DNA from: Myxococcus landrumus
Lineage (GTDB): Bacteria; Myxococcota; Myxococcia; Myxococcales; Myxococcaceae
Assembly: GCF_017301635.1 (NCBI RefSeq)
Contig: NZ_CP071091.1
Location: 3,422,001-3,486,000 of the forward strand
Reading direction: 5' to 3'
Length of the DNA stretch: 64,000 bases
Shown here: in pieces, positions 25,698 to 64,000 of the stretch
How the letters are laid out: the number at the start of each line of letters is the position of its first letter
Position numbering within the stretch: the first letter of the stretch is position 1
Translations under genes and position numbers: made by a program
The notes under the pieces: generated by a model
Database searches by the model: none
Told to the model about the DNA's origin: nothing
The model's input: only the letters and a program-made list of their open reading frames with translations

Positions 25698-56063
<30,366 letters not shown>

Positions 56064-56105
56064 CACCAGGCACGCCACTCCTCGATTCATGAGCAGAAAG
56101 CCGTT

Positions 56106-56149
56106 GGTCGAGGCGCCTTGTGTCCTCTGCGATGACAAGGCGCTCGACC
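56106..56149 (+). terminator. Strong stem-loop after the NRPS gene
   Basis: Arms 56106-56121 and 56135-56149 pair over about 15 bases with one bulged base and a 13-base loop, starting 43 bases after the NRPS stop. No T tract follows, so it is either a Rho-type/bidirectional terminator or a 3' stabiliser of the 30-kb mRNA. It separates the NRPS from the next gene. Confidence 0.5.
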
Positions 56150-56309
56150 GTCCTGCTCCTGCGAGAACAAAGCCCTTGAGGAGCCACAAACCCTGGATGA
56201 CCTCGGGTGGCGGCGCCGTCGTCCCATCATCGGGTCGCTCAGCGACGACCCCACTCACCATGCCCCCTGCTGCTATCCTGGCCAGAGGCTCTCACCCCAC
56301 GGAGCACTC

Positions 56310-57533
56310 GTGACTGTCAGCATCGAGGACCTGCGTCAGCGAGCACAGCGGCGACTCCCCCGGACCGTCTTCGACTACATCGAGGGCTTCTCCGACGACG
56401 GCTTCACCGTCACCGCCAATCGCCGGAGCTTCGAGCGCTACCTCTTCCAGTCGCGCGCGCTCGTGGACGTCAGCGCCGTGGACCACTCCACCACGCTCCT
56501 CGGTGAGAAGCTCGCGACCCCCATCATCCTCGCGCCCACGGGCCTCGCGGGATTGCTCGCGCCACGCGGAGAGGAGATGGCCGCGAAGGCCGCGGCGAGC
56601 CGGGGCACCGTGTTCACCTTGAGCACCATGTCCATCGGCACCATCGAGGAGGTGGCCTCCGCCGCGTCCACGCCCCTCTGGTTCCAGCTCTACATCTGGA
56701 AGGACCGGAGCGTCACCCGCTCCCTCCTGGACCGCGCGAAGGCCGCGGGCTACCGCGCGCTCTGCCTCACCGTCGACGTGCCCGTCATGGGCAACCGCGA
56801 ACAGGACCGGCGCAACGGCTTCACCATTCCTCCCCGCATCCACTTCTCCAACGTGCTGGATGTCTTGCGCCACCTGGGCTGGGTGCTGCGCATGTCCTCC
56901 AGCCCCCGCGCCACCTTCGGCAACTTCGTCGGCCACCCCGCGCTCACCCGCACCGACGCCGTGGGTGTCGCGCGCTTCACCAACCACCAGTTCGACACGT
57001 CCGTGACCTGGAAGGACGTGGAGTGGCTTCGCTCCCTCTGGCCCGGCCCCCTCGTCATCAAGGGCATCACCCACCCGGAGGACGCGCGGCGCGCCGTGTC
57101 GCTCGGCGCCGAAGCCCTCATCGTCTCGAACCACGGAGGCCGTCAGCTCGACTTCCTCCCCGCCGCCATCGACCTCCTCCCGGAAGTCGTCGACGCGGTG
57201 GAGGGTCGCGCGGAGGTCATCCTCGACGGCGGCATCCGCCGAGGCTCCGACATCGCGAAGGCCATCGCGATGGGCGCACGCGCCTGCATGGTGGGCCGCC
57301 CCTTCCTCTATGGGTTGGCCGCGGACGGGCAGGCGGGCGTGGAGCTCGCGCTCGACCTCCTCACCTCCGAGCTCGACCGCACGCTCGCCCTGCTCGGCAA
57401 GCCCCGGCTCAGCGACCTGGACCGCACCGCCCTGCGCGTCGACGCTCCTGCCTCACTCGAACCCCGCACGTCGCCGCGACACGGAGAGCCACCCACCTCC
57501 TTGAAGCCGGTGGGTGGGACACACGACACCTGA
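56310..57533 (+). CDS. lldD: FMN-dependent alpha-hydroxy-acid dehydrogenase (L-lactate dehydrogenase-like)
   Basis: A GTG start with GGAG upstream gives 407 residues, the normal length for the family. Diagnostic features are DYIEGFSDDG near residue 22, the substrate/FMN strand LCLTVDVPVMGNREQDRRNG, the active-site SNHGGRQLD (catalytic His and substrate-binding Arg), and the phosphate-binding LDGGIRRGSDIAKAIAMGA. The enzyme oxidises an L-2-hydroxy acid to a 2-oxo acid with FMN. Lactate is the default substrate, but relatives in peptide clusters oxidise mandelate-type acids. It follows the NRPS by 246 bases with a hairpin between, so it may or may not belong to that pathway. The last ~40 residues are a poorly conserved tail. 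Confidence 0.87.
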   Translation: MTVSIEDLRQRAQRRLPRTVFDYIEGFSDDGFTVTANRRSFERYLFQSRALVDVSAVDHSTTLLGEKLATPIILAPTGLAGLLAPRGEEMAAKAAASRGTVFTLSTMSIGTIEEVASAASTPLWFQLYIWKDRSVTRSLLDRAKAAGYRALCLTVDVPVMGNREQDRRNGFTIPPRIHFSNVLDVLRHLGWVLRMSSSPRATFGNFVGHPALTRTDAVGVARFTNHQFDTSVTWKDVEWLRSLWPGPLVIKGITHPEDARRAVSLGAEALIVSNHGGRQLDFLPAAIDLLPEVVDAVEGRAEVILDGGIRRGSDIAKAIAMGARACMVGRPFLYGLAADGQAGVELALDLLTSELDRTLALLGKPRLSDLDRTALRVDAPASLEPRTSPRHGEPPTSLKPVGGTHDT

Positions 57534-57560
57534 GTACACCCGGCGGGCGGGACGGGTCGG

Positions 57561-57597
57561 TTGACGGCAAGAGGCAACAGCCGATAGCTTGCGCCCC
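57561..57597 (+). promoter_or_regulatory. Promoter of the cysteine leader, placed for a leaderless mRNA
   Basis: TTGACG at 57561-57566, an 18-base spacer, and TAGCTT at 57585-57590. Seven bases after the -10 element comes GTG (57598), the first codon of the cysteine-rich frame. Transcription would start at that codon, so translation would begin without a Shine-Dalgarno. There is none nearby. Confidence 0.55.
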
Positions 57598-57690
57598 GTG
57601 CTGATGACTTCCACCCCGATGGCCGCGCTGATTCGCCGCTGCTGCCGCCGGGCGTGTGCCTGTTGTGCCCTCTCGGGCCTGGGCTGTTGA
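57598..57690 (+). CDS. Cysteine-rich leader peptide 1 (30 residues)
   Basis: GTG-initiated frame of 30 codons ending TGA at 57688-57690, with six cysteines. The core is RRCCRRACACC (residues 13-23) and the last codon is also Cys. A run like this makes translation depend on charged tRNA-Cys. It is followed by a terminator hairpin and lies upstream of the cysH operon on the same strand. It is most simply read as a sensing leader, not a functional protein. ATG codons at 57604 and 57619 in the same frame are alternative starts and keep all the cysteines. Confidence 0.65.
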   Translation: MLMTSTPMAALIRRCCRRACACCALSGLGC

Positions 57691-57698
57691 AGCGCGCA

Positions 57699-57770
57699 CC
57701 GGAAGCTCCCTGAGCCCCACGCGCCTCGCCCAGACCCACCTCCCTCCGGAGGTCCGGGTCTTCTTCTTTC
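57699..57770 (+). terminator. Attenuator 1: terminator hairpin with competing antiterminator
   Basis: Terminator: arms AGACCC+ACCTCC (57732-57743) and GGAGGT+GGGTCT (57748-57753, 57756-57761), a four-base loop, a two-base bulge, then TCTTCTTTC. Competing pairing: CCGGA (57699-57703) with TCCGG (57753-57757), and CTCC (57706-57709) with GGAG (57748-57751). The competing pairing uses the terminator's 3' arm. Its left half begins 9 bases after the leader stop codon, where a terminating ribosome would cover it and a ribosome stalled at the Cys codons would not. Confidence 0.55.
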
Positions 57771-57802
57771 ATCCACACTCCGTCTCTTCCTGGCTCCCGT
57801 CC

Positions 57803-57958
57803 ATGCGCCTTGCCTCCACCCAGCTCCACGCGATGCAGCCCGCGCCCCTCGCGGCGCTCGCCCTCGCGCGCGCTGACGTGAAGGTCTGCCGCTGTCTGGC
57901 GTGTGCGTGCGTCGTGTGTCCGCCCCCGGGCGGGCTCCGAGCCTCGAGGAGTGGATAG
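57803..57958 (+). CDS. Cysteine-rich leader peptide 2 (up to 51 residues)
   Basis: A frame from ATG 57803 to TAG 57956-57958. Its start is uncertain: ATG 57833 and GTG 57878 are in frame, and none has a good ribosome binding site. The diagnostic part is VCRCLACACVVC, five Cys codons between 57887 and 57919, directly followed by PPPGG. It lies between attenuator 1 and a very strong terminator just before cysH. I read it as a second cysteine-sensing leader in tandem; its own promoter was not found, so it is probably on the same transcript as leader 1. Confidence 0.5.
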   Translation: MRLASTQLHAMQPAPLAALALARADVKVCRCLACACVVCPPPGGLRASRSG

Positions 57959-58028
57959 CGCCTCTCTACCTCCACTTCCCCCGCTCGCGTGGCCCGCCCT
58001 CGAAAGAGGCGCGGGCCTTTTTGTTTTT
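57928..58028 (+). terminator. Attenuator 2: strong intrinsic terminator directly before cysH
   Basis: Stem 57991-58001 with 58006-58017 (11 pairs, one bulged base), a GAAA tetraloop, then TTTTTGTTTTT at 58018-58028: an unmistakable intrinsic terminator. It ends 18 bases before the cysH start. A segment GGGCGGGC at 57928-57935, nine bases past the last Cys codon of leader 2, is perfectly complementary to GCCCGCCC at 57992-57999 in the terminator's 5' arm. It could therefore block the terminator. Confidence 0.8.
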
Positions 58029-58046
58029 CACCCCCTGGAGTCCATC

Positions 58047-58793
58047 GTGTCCGCCAAGCCGTCTTCTTCTTCCACCCTCGCTCGTACACCCAAGGACCTG
58101 CTCGCCGCCGCCGCGCCCTTCGAGGCCGCGCCCGCCGAGCAGGTCCTCGCATGGGTCGAGCAACAGCTCGGCGAGCGCGCGGCCATCGCCTCGAGCTTCG
58201 GCGTGGAAGACATGGTCCTCATCGACCTGGCCCGCAAGCACGCCCCCAGCCTTCGCGTCTTCACGCTCGACACGGGCCGGCTTCCTCCCGAGACGTACGA
58301 GCTCATCGAGGTCGTCCGCAACCGCTACGGCATCGCGGTGGAGACCTTCTTCCCGGACCGGGCCCGCGTCGAAGCCCTGGAGTCGGAGCAGGGCTACTTC
58401 TCGTTCCGCCGAAGCCTGGAGGCGAGAAAGGAGTGCTGCGCCATCCGCAAGGTGGAGCCCTTGCGCCGCGCGCTTCAAGGCCGCGATGGCTGGGTGACCG
58501 GCCTGCGGCGTGAGCAGTCGCTCAATCGCAACCAGGTCTCCGTCGTCGAGTACGACGCCGAGCACGGCGGGCTGCTCAAGCTCAACCCGCTGGCCGCGTG
58601 GAGCCGCAAGCAGGTGTGGACCTACGTCCGTGAGAACGGCGTCCCGTACAGCGCACTGCACGACCGGGGCTACGCCTCCATCGGCTGCGCGCCGTGCACG
58701 CGAGCGGTGAAGCCGTACGAGGACGAGCGCGCGGGCCGCTGGTGGTGGGAGTCGCGCGAGCACAGCGAATGCGGCCTCCACCCCGTCCGGTGA
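58047..58793 (+). CDS. cysH: Adenylylsulfate (APS) reductase, thioredoxin-type
   Basis: The start is GTG 58047 with GGAG six bases upstream; a longer frame to 57903 would run through the terminator. The product is 248 residues. CysH reduces activated sulfate to sulfite with thioredoxin. The catalytic cysteine is in the C-terminal ECGLH. ECCAIRK and IGCAPC supply the CC...CxxC pattern that binds a [4Fe-4S] cluster and marks APS reductases as opposed to PAPS reductases. SSFGVEDMVL is the nucleotide-binding start. It is the first gene of the sulfate assimilation operon and stands directly behind the attenuator. Confidence 0.93.
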   Translation: MSAKPSSSSTLARTPKDLLAAAAPFEAAPAEQVLAWVEQQLGERAAIASSFGVEDMVLIDLARKHAPSLRVFTLDTGRLPPETYELIEVVRNRYGIAVETFFPDRARVEALESEQGYFSFRRSLEARKECCAIRKVEPLRRALQGRDGWVTGLRREQSLNRNQVSVVEYDAEHGGLLKLNPLAAWSRKQVWTYVRENGVPYSALHDRGYASIGCAPCTRAVKPYEDERAGRWWWESREHSECGLHPVR

Positions 58794-58806
58794 TGCCCCC
58801 TCCGCC

Positions 58807-59463
58807 ATGAGCACCGTCACCGCCATCGACTATCCCGTGAGCCTCCGGTTGGAGGGCCGCCGCGTCCTGCTCGTGGGCGGCGGCACCGTCGCCGAAGGGC
58901 GGGCCCTGGCCCTGCTCGACGCGGGCGCACGGCTCCACGTCATCTCTCCGACCCTCACGGACACCCTCCAGCGCCTCGCCACTGCAGGACGGCTGGAGTG
59001 GGAATCGCGGACCTACCGCCCCGGAGACACCCGCGGCCACGCGCTGGTGCTCTCCGCGACGGACGACGCCGAGGTGAACCAGCACCTGGTCGCCGAGGCA
59101 CGCGCCTCGGGCCTCTGGGTGAACACCGCGGACGAGCCGGAGCTGTGCGACTTCACGCTGCCTTCGGTCGAGCGCAGAGGCCCCATCACCCTGGCCATCT
59201 CCACCGGAGGCCACGCGCCCGCGCTCGCCCGACACCTGCGGCGGGAGCTGGGAGACCACATCGCATCCCACCATGTCTGGCTCGCGCGGCTGAGCGGGTG
59301 GCTTCGGCGGCACCTGCCGCGAGGCCCCCAGCGGCAGCTCCTGCTGAAGCGGCTGGTGGACGGAGACCTGGGCGCGCTGCTCGCGCGCGGTGAGCGCGGG
59401 GCCGTGTTCACGCGGCTGCGCTCGGAACTGAAGACATGGAAGTCATCTGGAGAACCCACATGA
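58807..59463 (+). CDS. Precorrin-2 dehydrogenase / siroheme synthase N-terminal type
   Basis: The product is 218 residues. The N terminus is a Rossmann fold with VLLVGGGTVAEGRALAL, followed by VNTADEPELCDFTLPS and the ISTGGHAPALARHLRREL helix, as in the SirC/Met8 type and the N-terminal half of CysG. It oxidises precorrin-2 to sirohydrochlorin with NAD; some members also insert iron. Siroheme is the cofactor of sulfite reductase, which explains its place here. Its stop overlaps the next start as ATGA, so the two halves of CysG are encoded as separate coupled genes. Confidence 0.9.
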   Translation: MSTVTAIDYPVSLRLEGRRVLLVGGGTVAEGRALALLDAGARLHVISPTLTDTLQRLATAGRLEWESRTYRPGDTRGHALVLSATDDAEVNQHLVAEARASGLWVNTADEPELCDFTLPSVERRGPITLAISTGGHAPALARHLRRELGDHIASHHVWLARLSGWLRRHLPRGPQRQLLLKRLVDGDLGALLARGERGAVFTRLRSELKTWKSSGEPT

Positions 59464-60260
59464 AGGAGTCGTCGAGAGGACGCGTGTACCTGGTGGGAGC
59501 AGGCCCGGGAGACCCGGAGCTGCTCACGCTGCGCGCGGCACGCCTGCTGCGCGAGGCCCACACGGTGGTGCACGACCGCCTCATCCACCCCGGGGTGCTG
59601 GAGCACGCCCGTCCCCATGCCCGGCTCATCTACGTGGGCAAGGAGGGAGGCGGAGAGTCCGTGCGGCAGGAGGACATCAACACGCTGCTCATCGCCCAGG
59701 CCCGGCTGGGCCGCATCGTCGTCCGGCTCAAGGGCGGAGACCCGTTCGTCTTCGGCCGAGGCGCCGAGGAGGCCCTGGCGCTGGAGGCCGCGCGCATCCC
59801 GTATGAAGTCGTCCCGGGCCTCTCCGCCGGCATCGCCGCACCCTCGGCGGCGGGCATCCCCGTCACGCATCGGGACGTGTCCGGTGAGGTGACGTTCGCC
59901 ACCGGGTTCCGGGTGAATGGCACACCGGACTGGCCCTTCCTCGCGCGAGCCCAGACGCTGGTGATGTTCATGGCGGGCCAGCGCCTGGAGGAGACCACGG
60001 CGGCGCTCGTCAGCGCGGGCCGCGCGGCCTCGACTCCCGCGGCGCTGGTGGAAGCGGGCACCTGGGAACACCAGCGTGTCGTAGAGGGGACGCTTGCGGA
60101 CGTGGCCGCGAAGGCGCGCGACGCGGGGCTGGGCTCTCCGTCGCTGCTCGTCGTCGGCGAGGTCGTCGCGTTGCGCGCCCGGCTCCACACACTCACCACC
60201 CGAAGAGATTCAAGCGCGGGGGATGTGCTTCCCCGATTCGCGGAGGCAGGAAATGACTGA
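59460..60260 (+). CDS. cobA: Uroporphyrinogen-III C-methyltransferase (SUMT)
   Basis: The start is ATG 59460, overlapping the upstream stop by four bases; a frame start at 59436 lies inside the previous gene. The product is 266 residues. Family motifs are [64 protein letters not shown] and MAGQRLEE. It adds two SAM-derived methyl groups to uroporphyrinogen III, giving precorrin-2, the substrate of the preceding gene product. It overlaps cysD by eight bases. Confidence 0.93.
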
Positions 60261-61170
60261 CACCATCCACGCACGCTCCACCCATCTCCAGGAGCTGGAG
60301 GCGGAGAGCATCCACATCCTCCGGGAGACGGTGGCGGAGTTCGCCAACCCGGTGATGCTCTACAGCATCGGCAAGGACTCGCAGGTGCTGCTGCATCTGG
60401 CGCGCAAGGCCTTCCACCCCGCGCCCCTGCCCTTCCCGCTGCTCCATGTCGACACCACGTGGAAGTTCCGGGACATGTACACGTTCCGGGACAATTTCGT
60501 GGCCCGGCACGGGCTGCGGCTCATCGTCCACCAGAACCGCAAGGCACTCGCCGAGGGCATCAACCCCTTCGACCACGGCAGCCAGAAGTACACCCACGCG
60601 ATGAAGACACAGGCGCTGCTGGAGGCGCTCGCGCTTCACGGCTTCGACGCGGCGTTTGGGGGTGCCCGCCGCGACGAGGAGAAGTCCCGCGCCAAGGAGC
60701 GCGTGTTCTCCTTCCGGGACAAGCATGGCCAGTGGGACCCGCGCCGGCAACGGCCGGAGCTGTGGAACCTCTACAACGGCCGCGTGGATGCGGGAGAGAG
60801 CATGCGCGTCTTCCCCTTGTCCAACTGGACGGAGCTGGACGTGTGGCACTACGTCCTGCGCGAGCGCATCCCCGTGGTGCCGCTCTACTTCGCCGCCGAA
60901 CGCCCCGTCATCGACCGGAACGGGTCACTGCTCATGGTGGACGACGAGCGCATGCGCCTGCGCCCAGGTGAGCGCCCCACCCTGCGCAAAGTGCGCTTCC
61001 GCACGCTGGGCTGCTACCCGCTCAGCGGCGCCATCGAATCCTCCGCCACCACGGTGGAGTCCGTCATCCACGAGATGGTCCACGCGAGGCAATCCGAGCG
61101 GCAGGGCCGGCTCATCGACCACGACGAGGAAGGCTCCATGGAGCTGAAGAAGCGCGAGGGATACTTCTAA
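60253..61170 (+). CDS. cysD: Sulfate adenylyltransferase subunit 2 (CysD)
   Basis: The start is ATG 60253, with GGAGGCAGG upstream. The 305-residue product has the expected length. The PP-loop [13 protein letters not shown] binds [30 protein letters not shown] and [11 protein letters not shown] are CysD hallmarks. It makes adenylylsulfate from ATP and sulfate, driven by the CysN GTPase. The 3' end overlaps cysN by one base (TAATG). Confidence 0.95.
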
Positions 61171-62903
61171 TGGACACCGCACTCCAAGCCGCACTCCCTA
61201 CCGACGTCCAGCAGCTCCTCGACGAGCACTCCAACCGCGCGCTGCTGAGGCTCGCCGTGGTGGGCTCCGTGGACGACGGAAAATCTACGCTCATCGGTCG
61301 CCTCCTCTACGAATGCGACGGGCTCTTCGAGGACCAGATCTCCGCCGTGCGCCGCGCCAGCGCGAAGCGAGCCGCGGCCCGGACGGAGGTTCCTCCCGAG
61401 GTGCTCGCGCAAGGACTGAAGGCCGCCGCGGGCGCGGGGGATGAGGAGGAGCTCGACTTCTCGCTCTTCACCGATGGCCTGCGCGCGGAGCGGGAGCAGG
61501 GCATCACCATCGACGTGGCCTACCGGTACCTGTCCACGGCGCGACGGAAGATCATCATCGCGGACACGCCGGGGCACCTTCAGTACACGCGGAACATGGC
61601 CACGGGCGCGTCGACCGCGGACGCGGGCGTCATCCTGGTGGATGCGCGGCTGGGAGTCCTGCCGCAGACGCGGCGCCATGCGTACATCGCCTCGCTGCTG
61701 GGCATCCCCTACCTCGCGGTGGTGGTGAACAAGATGGACCTGGTGGGCTACGACCGCGCCACCTTCGAGCGCATCGGCACGGAGCTGGCGGACTTCGCCA
61801 TCACCCTCGGCTTCGAGGGCGTGCGGCTGTTCCCCGTCAGCGCCAGCCGGGGCGACAACATCACCCGCGCCAGCACGCGCACCCCCTGGTTCGATGGCGG
61901 CACGTTGCTGTCGTGGCTGGAGTCGCTGCCCCATCAACGCCGGCTCGACGGCGCGCCCTTCCGCTTCCCCGTCCAGTACGTGCTGCGCCCGCACCAGGAC
62001 TATCGCGGGCTCGCGGGGCAGGTGGCCTCCGGCACGGTGCGAGTGGGTGACGAGGTGCAGGTGTTGCCCTCGGGACGCAGGACCCGCGTGGAAGCCATCG
62101 ACACCTTCGATGGTCCCCGGGAGGAAGCCTCCGCCACCGCCTCCATCACCCTGCGTCTGGCGGATGAAGTGGACGCCAGCCGAGGTGACGTGCTGGCGCA
62201 TGTGAACCAGCCGCCCCTGGCCCTCCAGCACCTGGACGCGATGCTGGTGTGGTTCGGGGAGCAGCCGCTGGACGCGACGCGCCGCTACCTGGTGAAGCAG
62301 GCCACGCGCACCGCGCCCGCGCACATCGAGCGCGTGCTGTGGCGCAAGGAGCTGGAGGACCTGTCGGAAGTCCCGGCGGAGTCGCTCTCGCTCAACGACA
62401 TCGGCCGGGTGCGGCTCGTGTGCCGGCGTCCCCTGCTGTGCGACCCGTACCAGGAGAACCGCCGCACCGGCGCCTTCATCGTCATCGACGCGCTCACCCA
62501 CGACACCGTGGGCGCGGGCATGGTGCTCGGCCCCGCGGAGACCACGTCGCGCGGCGCGCAATCCCTGGTCAGCCGCGATGAGCGGTGGAAGCACCTGGGC
62601 CAGTCCGGCGCCGTCGTCCTGCTCCCCGCCACGCCCGACAGCGAGCACCGCGCCTTCGCGCTGGAGCGCGCGCTGTTCGACCGGGGCTTACATGTGGCCA
62701 CCGTCAACGGAGACGTGGAGGTGGCGCAGGCCCTGGCACGCGCGGGGCTGCTCGTGCTGGTGCATGCACACGCGCCCCAGGTCCGCCGCACGCTGCGCGA
62801 GGAGACTCGCGACACGGGCACGGGTTGGTGGGAGCTGGAGGAATCCGAATCCGTGGAGCGCTGGACCGAGCGCCTCGCGTCCACGCGGGGGAACAAGTCA
62901 TGA
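61170..62903 (+). CDS. cysN: Sulfate adenylyltransferase subunit 1 (CysN) with degenerate kinase-like tail
   Basis: This 577-residue protein has an EF-Tu-like GTPase domain: VVGSVDDGKSTLIGRLLYE, DTPGHLQYTRNMATGAS, NKMDLVGY. Beta-barrel domains follow up to about residue 465. CysN drives ATP sulfurylase through GTP hydrolysis. The last ~110 residues (GAVVLLPATPDSEHRAFALE, LHVATVNGDVEVAQAL) align in outline with the start of an APS kinase, as in CysNC fusions. However, the P-loop GKS is absent and the domain is shorter than a kinase. This tail is probably inactive. It is flanked by overlapping genes on both sides. Confidence 0.92.
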   Translation: MDTALQAALPTDVQQLLDEHSNRALLRLAVVGSVDDGKSTLIGRLLYECDGLFEDQISAVRRASAKRAAARTEVPPEVLAQGLKAAAGAGDEEELDFSLFTDGLRAEREQGITIDVAYRYLSTARRKIIIADTPGHLQYTRNMATGASTADAGVILVDARLGVLPQTRRHAYIASLLGIPYLAVVVNKMDLVGYDRATFERIGTELADFAITLGFEGVRLFPVSASRGDNITRASTRTPWFDGGTLLSWLESLPHQRRLDGAPFRFPVQYVLRPHQDYRGLAGQVASGTVRVGDEVQVLPSGRRTRVEAIDTFDGPREEASATASITLRLADEVDASRGDVLAHVNQPPLALQHLDAMLVWFGEQPLDATRRYLVKQATRTAPAHIERVLWRKELEDLSEVPAESLSLNDIGRVRLVCRRPLLCDPYQENRRTGAFIVIDALTHDTVGAGMVLGPAETTSRGAQSLVSRDERWKHLGQSGAVVLLPATPDSEHRAFALERALFDRGLHVATVNGDVEVAQALARAGLLVLVHAHAPQVRRTLREETRDTGTGWWELEESESVERWTERLASTRGNKS

Positions 62904-64000
62904 GCGCCTCATCCCCCGGGGTCCTCCCCCGGCCGACGTCGCCCTTCGTCGACGCGGTGCTGGGCGCGGAGAAGAGCACGCAACTGCTGCGGCTCGTGGA
63001 GGGACTGGACCCGGCGGCCCTGCACTGGCTCAGCGGCTATGCCGCGGGCCTCGCCGTCCGGACGGGCACGGGCGCCGTGCTCTCCGTCCCCATCACCTCC
63101 GTGGAGTCTCCCGCGCAGGCCACGGAAGCCCCCACCTCGCCGCTCACCATCGTCTACGGCACCCAGACGGGAAACAGCCGTCACCTCGCGGAGCGGCTCA
63201 AGCGACAGACGGAGGGCGCGGGCCTCCCGGTGCGGCTCATCCGGGCCAGCGACTACCCGGTGCGAGAGCTGGCGCGCGAGAAGTTCCTCGCCGTGGTTAT
63301 CAGCACGCAGGGAGATGGAGACCCACCCGACGACTCGCGCGGGTTCTACGAGTACGTGCTCGGCAAGCGTGCCCCGCGATTGGAGGGGCTGCGCTTCACG
63401 GTGCTCGGGCTCGGGGACTCCAGCTACCCGAAGTTCTGCGAAGTGGGGCGGGTGCTCGACGCGCGGCTGGCGGAGCTGGGGGCCACGAGGCTCACGGAGC
63501 GCGCGGACTGCGACCTGGACTTCGAGCCCATCGCCGCGGGCTGGCTGGACCAGACGCTGGCCCGCACGCGCGAGGCGCTGGAGCCTCGTGCGCCCGCTGT
63601 CGCCACCGTCGTCCCGCTGCGAGGAGCACCGGCCCTGCCCACCGTGGGCAAGGAGGCGCCTTTCAGCGCGGCGGTGCTCGTCAACCAGCGCATCACGGGC
63701 CGAGGCGCGCTCAAGGACGTCCGCCACGTCGAGCTCTCGCTCGAAGGTTCCGGCCTGGAGTACCTCCCCGGCGACTCGCTGGGGGTCTGGGCGCCCAATG
63801 CTTCCGAGCTGGTGCAGGCCGTGCTGACGCATCAGCGGTTGGACGGAGCCGAGCCGGTGACTCGCGATGGGAAGACGCTGCCCCTGTCGCGTTGGCTCAC
63901 GGACGAGCTGGAGCTGACCCGGCTGAGCCGTCCCTTCCTGGAGCGCCATGCCACGCTCGCGGCGAGCACCGCGCTCCAGGCGCTGCTGTCACCATCGGGG
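62900..64000 (+). CDS. cysJ: Sulfite reductase flavoprotein alpha subunit (CysJ), cut by window end
   Basis: The start is ATG 62900, overlapping the cysN stop (ATGA). About 367 residues are visible with no stop before the edge. The N-terminal ALHWLSGYAAGLA segment, the flavodoxin domain (VYGTQTGNSRHLAERL, STQGDGDPPDDSRGFYEYVL, LGLGDSSYPKFCEVG) and the start of the FAD-binding region (LEYLPGDSLGVWAPN) identify CysJ. It passes electrons from NADPH through FAD and FMN to the sirohaem subunit CysI, whose gene probably follows outside the window. Confidence 0.92.
   Translation, partial: MSASSPGVLPRPTSPFVDAVLGAEKSTQLLRLVEGLDPAALHWLSGYAAGLAVRTGTGAVLSVPITSVESPAQATEAPTSPLTIVYGTQTGNSRHLAERLKRQTEGAGLPVRLIRASDYPVRELAREKFLAVVISTQGDGDPPDDSRGFYEYVLGKRAPRLEGLRFTVLGLGDSSYPKFCEVGRVLDARLAELGATRLTERADCDLDFEPIAAGWLDQTLARTREALEPRAPAVATVVPLRGAPALPTVGKEAPFSAAVLVNQRITGRGALKDVRHVELSLEGSGLEYLPGDSLGVWAPNASELVQAVLTHQRLDGAEPVTRDGKTLPLSRWLTDELELTRLSRPFLERHATLAASTALQALLSPSG

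Follow-up and report, generated by a model that had tools for sequence, protein, structure and literature searches.

The sulfate-assimilation genes of Myxococcus landrumus are preceded by two short Cys-rich reading frames in tandem, leader peptide 1 (LP1) and leader peptide 2 (LP2), each with a terminator-like hairpin behind it. We interpret this arrangement as a series of two transcription attenuators, ribosome-mediated and specific for cysteine, a reading to which we assign a probability of about 0.74. Judged from sequence comparison, the element is conserved and real and is part of a wider set of leaders in the order, and cysteine shortage very probably switches on sulfur assimilation through these leaders. 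The initial annotation of the DNA analysed here (64,000 nucleotides, hereafter the window) had recognized a TTGACG-18-TAGCTT-7-GTG arrangement opening a 30-codon frame with six Cys codons, an RRCCRRACACC core and Cys as its last codon, on the strand of cysH. These features lie exactly where it had placed them, but they make up half of the element: the second Cys frame, LP2 (...VCRCLACACVVCPPPGGLRASRSG), which sits between LP1 and cysH, had been missed together with both terminator-like hairpins (Table 1). It had also proposed a cysH operon downstream on the same strand. Pfam finds a PAPS reductase domain in the cysH product, and NCBIfam, applied to cysH and cysD, identifies each of them.

Table 1. 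Features of the leader region and the genes behind it, in window coordinates
Feature	Position	Strand	Remarks
Promoter-like TTGACG-18-TAGCTT	57561..57590	+	TTGACG 57561-57566, spacer 18 nt, TAGCTT 57585-57590
LP1, leader peptide 1	57598..57690	+	30 codons, 6 Cys; frame kept in 27/27 genus genomes; GTG at 57598, 7 nt past TAGCTT; stop TGA 57688-57690
LP1 protector hairpin GCCC-TCTC-GGGC	57667..57678	+	Own sequence; predicted to compete with the antiterminator
LP1 antiterminator strand GGGCCTGGGC	57675..57684	+	Candidate in the last LP1 codons; weak support
Partner of LP1 antiterminator (GCCCAGACCC)	57728..57737	+	Overlaps 5' arm of terminator 1
Terminator-like hairpin 1 and U/C tract (TCTTCTTTC)	57732..57770	+	
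LP2, leader peptide 2	57803..57958	+	51 codons from conserved ATG, 5 Cys
LP2 protector hairpin CCGCC/GGCGG	57920..57933	+	
LP2 antiterminator strand GGGCGGGCTCCGAGC	57928..57942	+	
Partner of LP2 antiterminator, GCTCG..GCCCGCCC	57983..57999	+	Overlaps 5' arm of terminator 2
Terminator-like hairpin 2 and U tract (TTTTTGTTTTT)	57991..58028	+	
cysH	58047..58793	+	GTG start; Pfam PF01507 (PAPS reductase domain), NCBIfam phosphoadenylyl-sulfate reductase; first gene of presumed operon
SirC-like, SUMT-like, cysD, cysN-like, flavodoxin/FAD (cysJ-like) genes	58807..64000	+	Run continues past window end

Of the window's frames of up to 60 codons, taken from both strands, only LP1 and LP2 reach at least five Cys within 14 codons. 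Their Cys codons are also unusual. UGU accounts for 11 of the 15 Cys codons in three M. landrumus leaders compared with 1 of 52 in the coding sequences of the window (Fisher p ~1e-8), and over 27 loci for 123/166 in LP1 and 103/162 in LP2 compared with 9/137 in their cysH genes; the leaders favour this rare codon, opposite to the gene bias. As an explanation for the pair, chance frames in GC-rich DNA seem to us close to negligible: at least one such frame did turn up in 7 of 2000 dinucleotide shuffles of 57534-58046, but two turned up in none, both frames are kept in 27 of 27 genomes, and the UGU preference runs against that of genes. Neither peptide has a Pfam match, and an Rfam search of 50000-64000 gave 0 matches at the gathering score, with two sub-threshold ones at the element (E 0.13 and 0.68). 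Elsewhere in the window, upstream of an FMN-dependent dehydrogenase gene and the leaders, positions 25698-56063 form one frame of 10121 codons whose motifs look to us like the domain repeats of a giant non-ribosomal peptide synthetase.

CysH was found in 79 of the 145 genomes of the order, and the DNA upstream of it was compared for 70 of the 79. The search upstream of cysH in relatives that the initial annotation had proposed recovered LP1 and LP2 together in 27 of 27 Myxococcus/Pyxidicoccus genomes (the genus genomes), as well as in two genomes of the genus Citreicoccus (g5; one is Citreicoccus inhibens) and one Archangium MAG (G121). A single Cys leader precedes cysH in two Archangium-genus genomes (L045, L046) and two Deltaproteobacteria-titled MAGs (L054, L056), and in G089 (L057) and G137 (L058, L162) a leader is followed first by a sulfite reductase-like gene, and cysH comes later. 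No Cys leader was counted upstream of cysH in 34 of the 70 relatives; two of these 34, L033 and L060, offer less than 150 nt upstream, too little for a verdict. The two modules of the Archangium MAG are alike, with 106 of 154 aligned columns identical, which suggests that the leader pair was born by tandem duplication.

Several other patterns were seen in the relatives. First, L037, L040 and L061, all among the 34, have Cys-containing frames behind a TTGAC-type promoter-like sequence upstream of cysH, which may be degenerate or further members of the leader set. Second, a terminator-like hairpin before cysH is kept in L030, L032 and L034 (genus g3), where no Cys leader was seen; attenuator decay is a possible explanation. 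Third, palindrome-like motifs (TCCGCCATATTGGCG, TCCGTTATAGCGGA, TCCGTTATAACGGA and similar ones) lie upstream of cysH in 11 relatives (L019, L021, L022, L030, L034, L041-L043 and L045-L047, of which L045 and L046 also have Cys leaders) and in 0 of the 27 genus genomes, possibly marking a transcription-factor operator exchanged for attenuation. Fourth, LP2 of L044, the Archangium MAG with both leaders, contains about a dozen Cys codons in a row. Lastly, genus g6 contributes 0 of the 79 CysH-matching genomes, and 15 g6 genomes are listed without a match.

The position of LP1 relative to its promoter-like sequence is maintained across the genus. TTGACG is present in 27 of 27 genomes, with a TANNNT hexamer at 17-18 nt spacing; a generic sigma-70 scan of 57500-58100 called no promoter. 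LP1 starts with GTG 7-8 nt 3' of the -10 in 11 genus genomes, which make up the window's clade, and with ATG 10-11 nt 3' of it in 12; in 4 of the 27 the -10 region is duplicated and the LP1 start is ambiguous. Among promoter-proximal leaders more widely, a permissive -10 pattern puts the start codon of 57 of 61 rows at 6-12 nt past the -10, a count in which three loci were entered twice, ten cysK-metN leaders were left out and one leader has no recognized promoter. Since transcription usually begins about 7 nt after the -10, this spacing would give LP1-type leaders a 5' UTR of 0-5 nt. It supports an LP1 start at or within a few nucleotides of the expected 5' end, that is, a predicted near-leaderless start. 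A Shine-Dalgarno-like motif was found 4-18 nt before the start in 0 of 27 genus genomes for LP1 and likewise in 0 of 27 for LP2, whose start is not promoter-proximal.

Conservation of the Cys codons, which the initial annotation had made a test of its proposal, was checked and did not refute it. Cys is found in 27 of 27 genomes at LP1 codons -11, -9 and -1 and at LP2 codons -16 and -13, and the L-G-C-stop end of LP1 is kept in all 27; several other Cys columns hold Arg or another residue in some of these genomes (Arg in 4 of 27 at LP1 codon -8). LP2 of L004 has 4 Cys and that of L038 has 6. LP2 codon -6, which falls inside the antiterminator, is CGA in 27 of 27 genomes; CGA makes up 67 of the 980 Arg codons in the window. 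Strong conservation at several Cys positions could also be expected of functional Cys-rich micropeptides with metal or redox binding, which would not be cis leaders. We hold this to be very improbable, given that the conserved non-Cys residues coincide with RNA helices (PPxGG and R-A in LP2, L-G-C in LP1), that terminator-like hairpins follow the frames and no Pfam family matches them, and that the Cys pattern varies between leaders (CCRRACACC, CRCLACACVVC, CCCCCRVACACCL and CCRGTCC).

Both leaders have a hairpin behind them in all 27 genus genomes, at -13.7 to -29.9 kcal/mol for LP1 and -21.1 to -30.9 kcal/mol for LP2. The tract after the LP2 hairpin is U-rich, and hairpin 1 has a poor U tract in several members of the window's clade. 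All of 60 rows examined (30 LP1 and 30 LP2) showed a hairpin with 4 or more U in the next ten bases, some of these hairpins being weak or unexpected. Beyond its last clustered Cys, LP2 encodes GGGCGGGC..CGAGC, a strand able to pair either with the protector CCGCC just upstream or, at the foot of hairpin 2, with GCUCG..GCCCGCC. Pairing with the latter gives an antiterminator duplex of -26.7 to -38.4 kcal/mol, comparable with the hairpins, with shuffle p values of 0.003-0.146 over the 27 genomes. The final LP1 codons encode GGGCCUGGGC, which can pair, with one mismatch, with GCCCAGACCC of hairpin 1; shuffle tests of this duplex were weak (p 0.010-0.508). When a wider segment of the M. landrumus leaders was taken, neither was significant (LP1 p 0.891, LP2 p 0.10).

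This imbalance between the two leaders bears on whether LP2 is the sole attenuator, with LP1 a decaying or auxiliary copy, such as a 5' translated stabilizer. The statistically weak antiterminator of LP1, its fragile fold switch and the poor U tract of hairpin 1 in several genomes would all fit such a role. LP1 nevertheless keeps three Cys columns and its L-G-C-stop end throughout the genus, its promoter spacing is kept in the 23 genomes without a duplicated -10, and hairpin 1 reaches -25.2 to -29.9 kcal/mol in xanthus-like and Pyxidicoccus-like genomes. In addition, a leader model described below (R2), whose alignment contains LP1, matches the LP1 of M. landrumus at E 1.5e-10. We consider a lone LP2 attenuator quite unlikely and favour two working units in series.

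The competing helices were examined by a covariation test on 28 leaders picked for diversity, with helices drawn from one row, 500 shuffles and slid controls. The antiterminator was paired in 78.7% of cells compared with 33.5-51.4% for slid controls, the terminator in 89.2% and the protector in 84.7%, and each of the three helices paired more often than when slid; the covariation score was reached by 0 of 500 shuffles for the antiterminator and for the terminator and by 2 of 500 for the protector. On three of the five measures (cells paired, cells doubly changed and the covariation score), no more than 5 of 500 shuffles did as well. The other two, both-side-changed pairs and further pair types, which are described as less easily inflated, did not exceed the shuffles for any helix (148 to 328 of 500 match). 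We regard helix covariation as support and not as proof, because a single row served to draw the helices and kin rows inflate the counts.

The hairpins need not be terminators if control is translational, as in mycobacteria, with stalling altering the folding at the cysH ribosome-binding site. A GGAG-type motif lies 4-18 nt before the cysH start in 26 of 26 genomes with a settable start, and the minimum free energy (MFE) fold of M. landrumus pairs GCUCC of LP2 with GGAGU before cysH. The mechanism at cysteine genes of M. smegmatis is termed translation attenuation in the accessible part of a 2026 paper. However, the GCTCC string occurs in the 5' part of LP2 in only 18 of 27 genomes, hairpins follow both leaders in all 27, with U-rich tracts after LP2, and the antiterminator/terminator pairing is above that of slid controls. 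Translational attenuation thus appears unlikely to us, and transcription attenuation remains the preferred reading.

Folding calculations with and without a stalled ribosome were less informative about the switch. In M. landrumus LP2 with a ribosome at Cys -51 the antiterminator was the best fold (antiterminator 0.58, terminator 0.19), but it also won without a ribosome (0.71 vs 0.07). In LP1 a ribosome at Cys -30 flipped the MFE fold; with a shorter 3' end the terminator kept 0.90. Across loci, complete leaders at equilibrium mostly favoured the terminator, stalled ribosome or not, and because such folds are mostly uninformative as a test of a switch, truncated transcripts were used. With the 3' arm absent, the best probability of antiterminator pairing to the 5' arm among stalled Cys codons had a median of ~0.9 (30 LP1 and 30 LP2 rows). 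With the 3' arm absent and no ribosome it also formed in most of the printed leaders, often at equally high values; the value of 0 for a ribosome at the stop codon arises by construction, the antiterminator strand being omitted there, and carries no evidential weight. We therefore infer the switch from anatomy and kinetics, not from folding.

The proposed course of events is as follows. Transcription would start about 7 nt past the -10, and translation of LP1 would begin right at the 5' end or no more than ~5 nt from it. When Cys-tRNA is scarce, uncharged tRNA-Cys being the signal, the ribosome would stall at the Cys codons and mask the 5' half of the protector, freeing the antiterminator strand encoded by the last leader codons. 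This strand would grab the 5' arm of the terminator before the 3' arm is made, and RNA polymerase would read through. When Cys-tRNA is plentiful, the ribosome would get to the stop codon, and the antiterminator strand would be covered (LP1) or kept in the protector (LP2); with the antiterminator unavailable, the terminator would form and transcription would end. The same test would be run again at LP2.

Related leaders also precede other sulfur genes. With R1, a model built on LP2, a similar leader turned up ahead of cysK in seven genus genomes (L155-L161; cysK was identified by NCBIfam for L156 and by the same protein start for the other six); in G137, leaders turned up ahead of sulfite reductase-like and Sulf_transp genes. 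The broader model R2 found a third leader type, in some genomes before cysK or cysK-metN-like genes. A DNA query of this type matched 25 of 27 genus genomes, with a Cys-rich frame in 25 of 25, and M. landrumus carries it at C1:5632268-5632500. A scripted check found a cysK start after the leader in ten of the 25 genomes; in G112, cysK scores above the NCBIfam cut-off and the gene behind it, for a MetN-like ABC ATPase, scores below (Pfam ABC_tran and NIL). In 195 genomes of the phylum R2 matched 40 at E 0.05, and its strong hits were all in this order; R2 was trained on some of the matched loci, and the filters of the phylum search are stricter and lose weak matches.

Eleven weak R1 matches (L164-L174) and six weak R2 matches (L184-L189) were judged to be chance, none having a Cys leader before a sulfur gene. 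One of them, L171, has a short frame containing LSLSLSILGLLS and a hairpin with an extended U run, both ahead of a gene recognized by eye as acetolactate synthase-like; it resembles a leader for branched-chain amino acids within this order. In 20 other genomes the DNA before sulfite reductase homologues, short in some cases, yielded no convincing leader; Cys-containing frames were seen in four (L226, L230, L232, L236).

The element resembles classical attenuators in its parts. The trp, his and ilv attenuators of enterobacteria consist of a leader peptide with regulatory codons, a protector, an antiterminator and a terminator, and the same parts are predicted here; the myxobacterial element differs in its cysteine signal, its (near-)leaderless first leader and its two copies in series. 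As in the trp/his type, the regulatory codons are clustered before the operon and a terminator-like hairpin lies between leader and first gene. For protector and antiterminator, the pairing is clear in LP2 and weak in LP1, with a score that beats controls and double-changed pairs that do not. The tandem pair, each member with a terminator-like hairpin and a possible antiterminator, makes the element look trp/his-type rather than mycobacterial.

The initial annotation had likened LP1 to mycobacterial leaders, reportedly described as leaderless polycysteine short ORFs by Canestrari and colleagues in 2020, through either common descent or convergence. Its logic of control by a Cys leader probably holds, a Cys leader being conserved before the sulfate-assimilation operon; its mycobacterial platform probably does not, given the tandem arrangement and the terminator-like hairpins. 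Mycobacterial and actinobacterial cys leaders share with ours, as far as the accessible parts of the sources go, a Cys-rich short frame before cysteine or sulfur genes. The mycobacterial ones are leaderless according to a title, and LP1 would start at or near the expected 5' end. The accessible part of a 2005 account gives no conserved terminator hairpin for Mycobacterium cys leaders (PMC1262725), whereas the myxobacterial leaders are tandem, with a terminator-like hairpin each in 27 of 27 genomes and a possible antiterminator. Because the platform differs, an origin independent of the mycobacterial leaders is likelier than common descent with them. A mechanistic parallel is offered by the uORFC-8-2 motif upstream of cysS in Rhodobacterales, which usually has two tandem Cys codons and which, in the part of the text available (PMC8632094, 2021), is likewise predicted to work by ribosome-mediated transcription attenuation, using Cys codons, a terminator stem and a U run. 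It differs in being alphaproteobacterial and lying before cysS, while the myxobacterial pair lies before cysH, SirC-like, SUMT-like, cysD, cysN-like and cysJ-like genes. Full-text literature searches, which covered titles and the starts of abstracts and reached subscription papers thinly, found no account of such an element in myxobacteria.

If the attenuator reading is correct, myxobacteria join the groups with predicted cysteine-codon attenuators, and a (near-)leaderless leader would be coupled to intrinsic termination. One idea holds that attenuators use sensitive codons, and the UGU bias of the leaders makes it testable for cysteine. In a broader picture, for and against which we see even chances, myxobacteria would have a cysteine regulon built on (near-)leaderless, UGU-biased leaders with intrinsic terminators, and the sulfate-assimilation operon of the Myxococcus lineage would have come by tandem duplication to carry two of them in series, multiplying readthrough and giving a steeper response than a single attenuator; serial leader-peptide attenuation would then be a new regulatory layout. 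The two predicted switches in a row are kept in 27 of 27 genomes of the genus, including the model organism Myxococcus xanthus, in which a sharpening of the response by serial attenuators would be directly testable.
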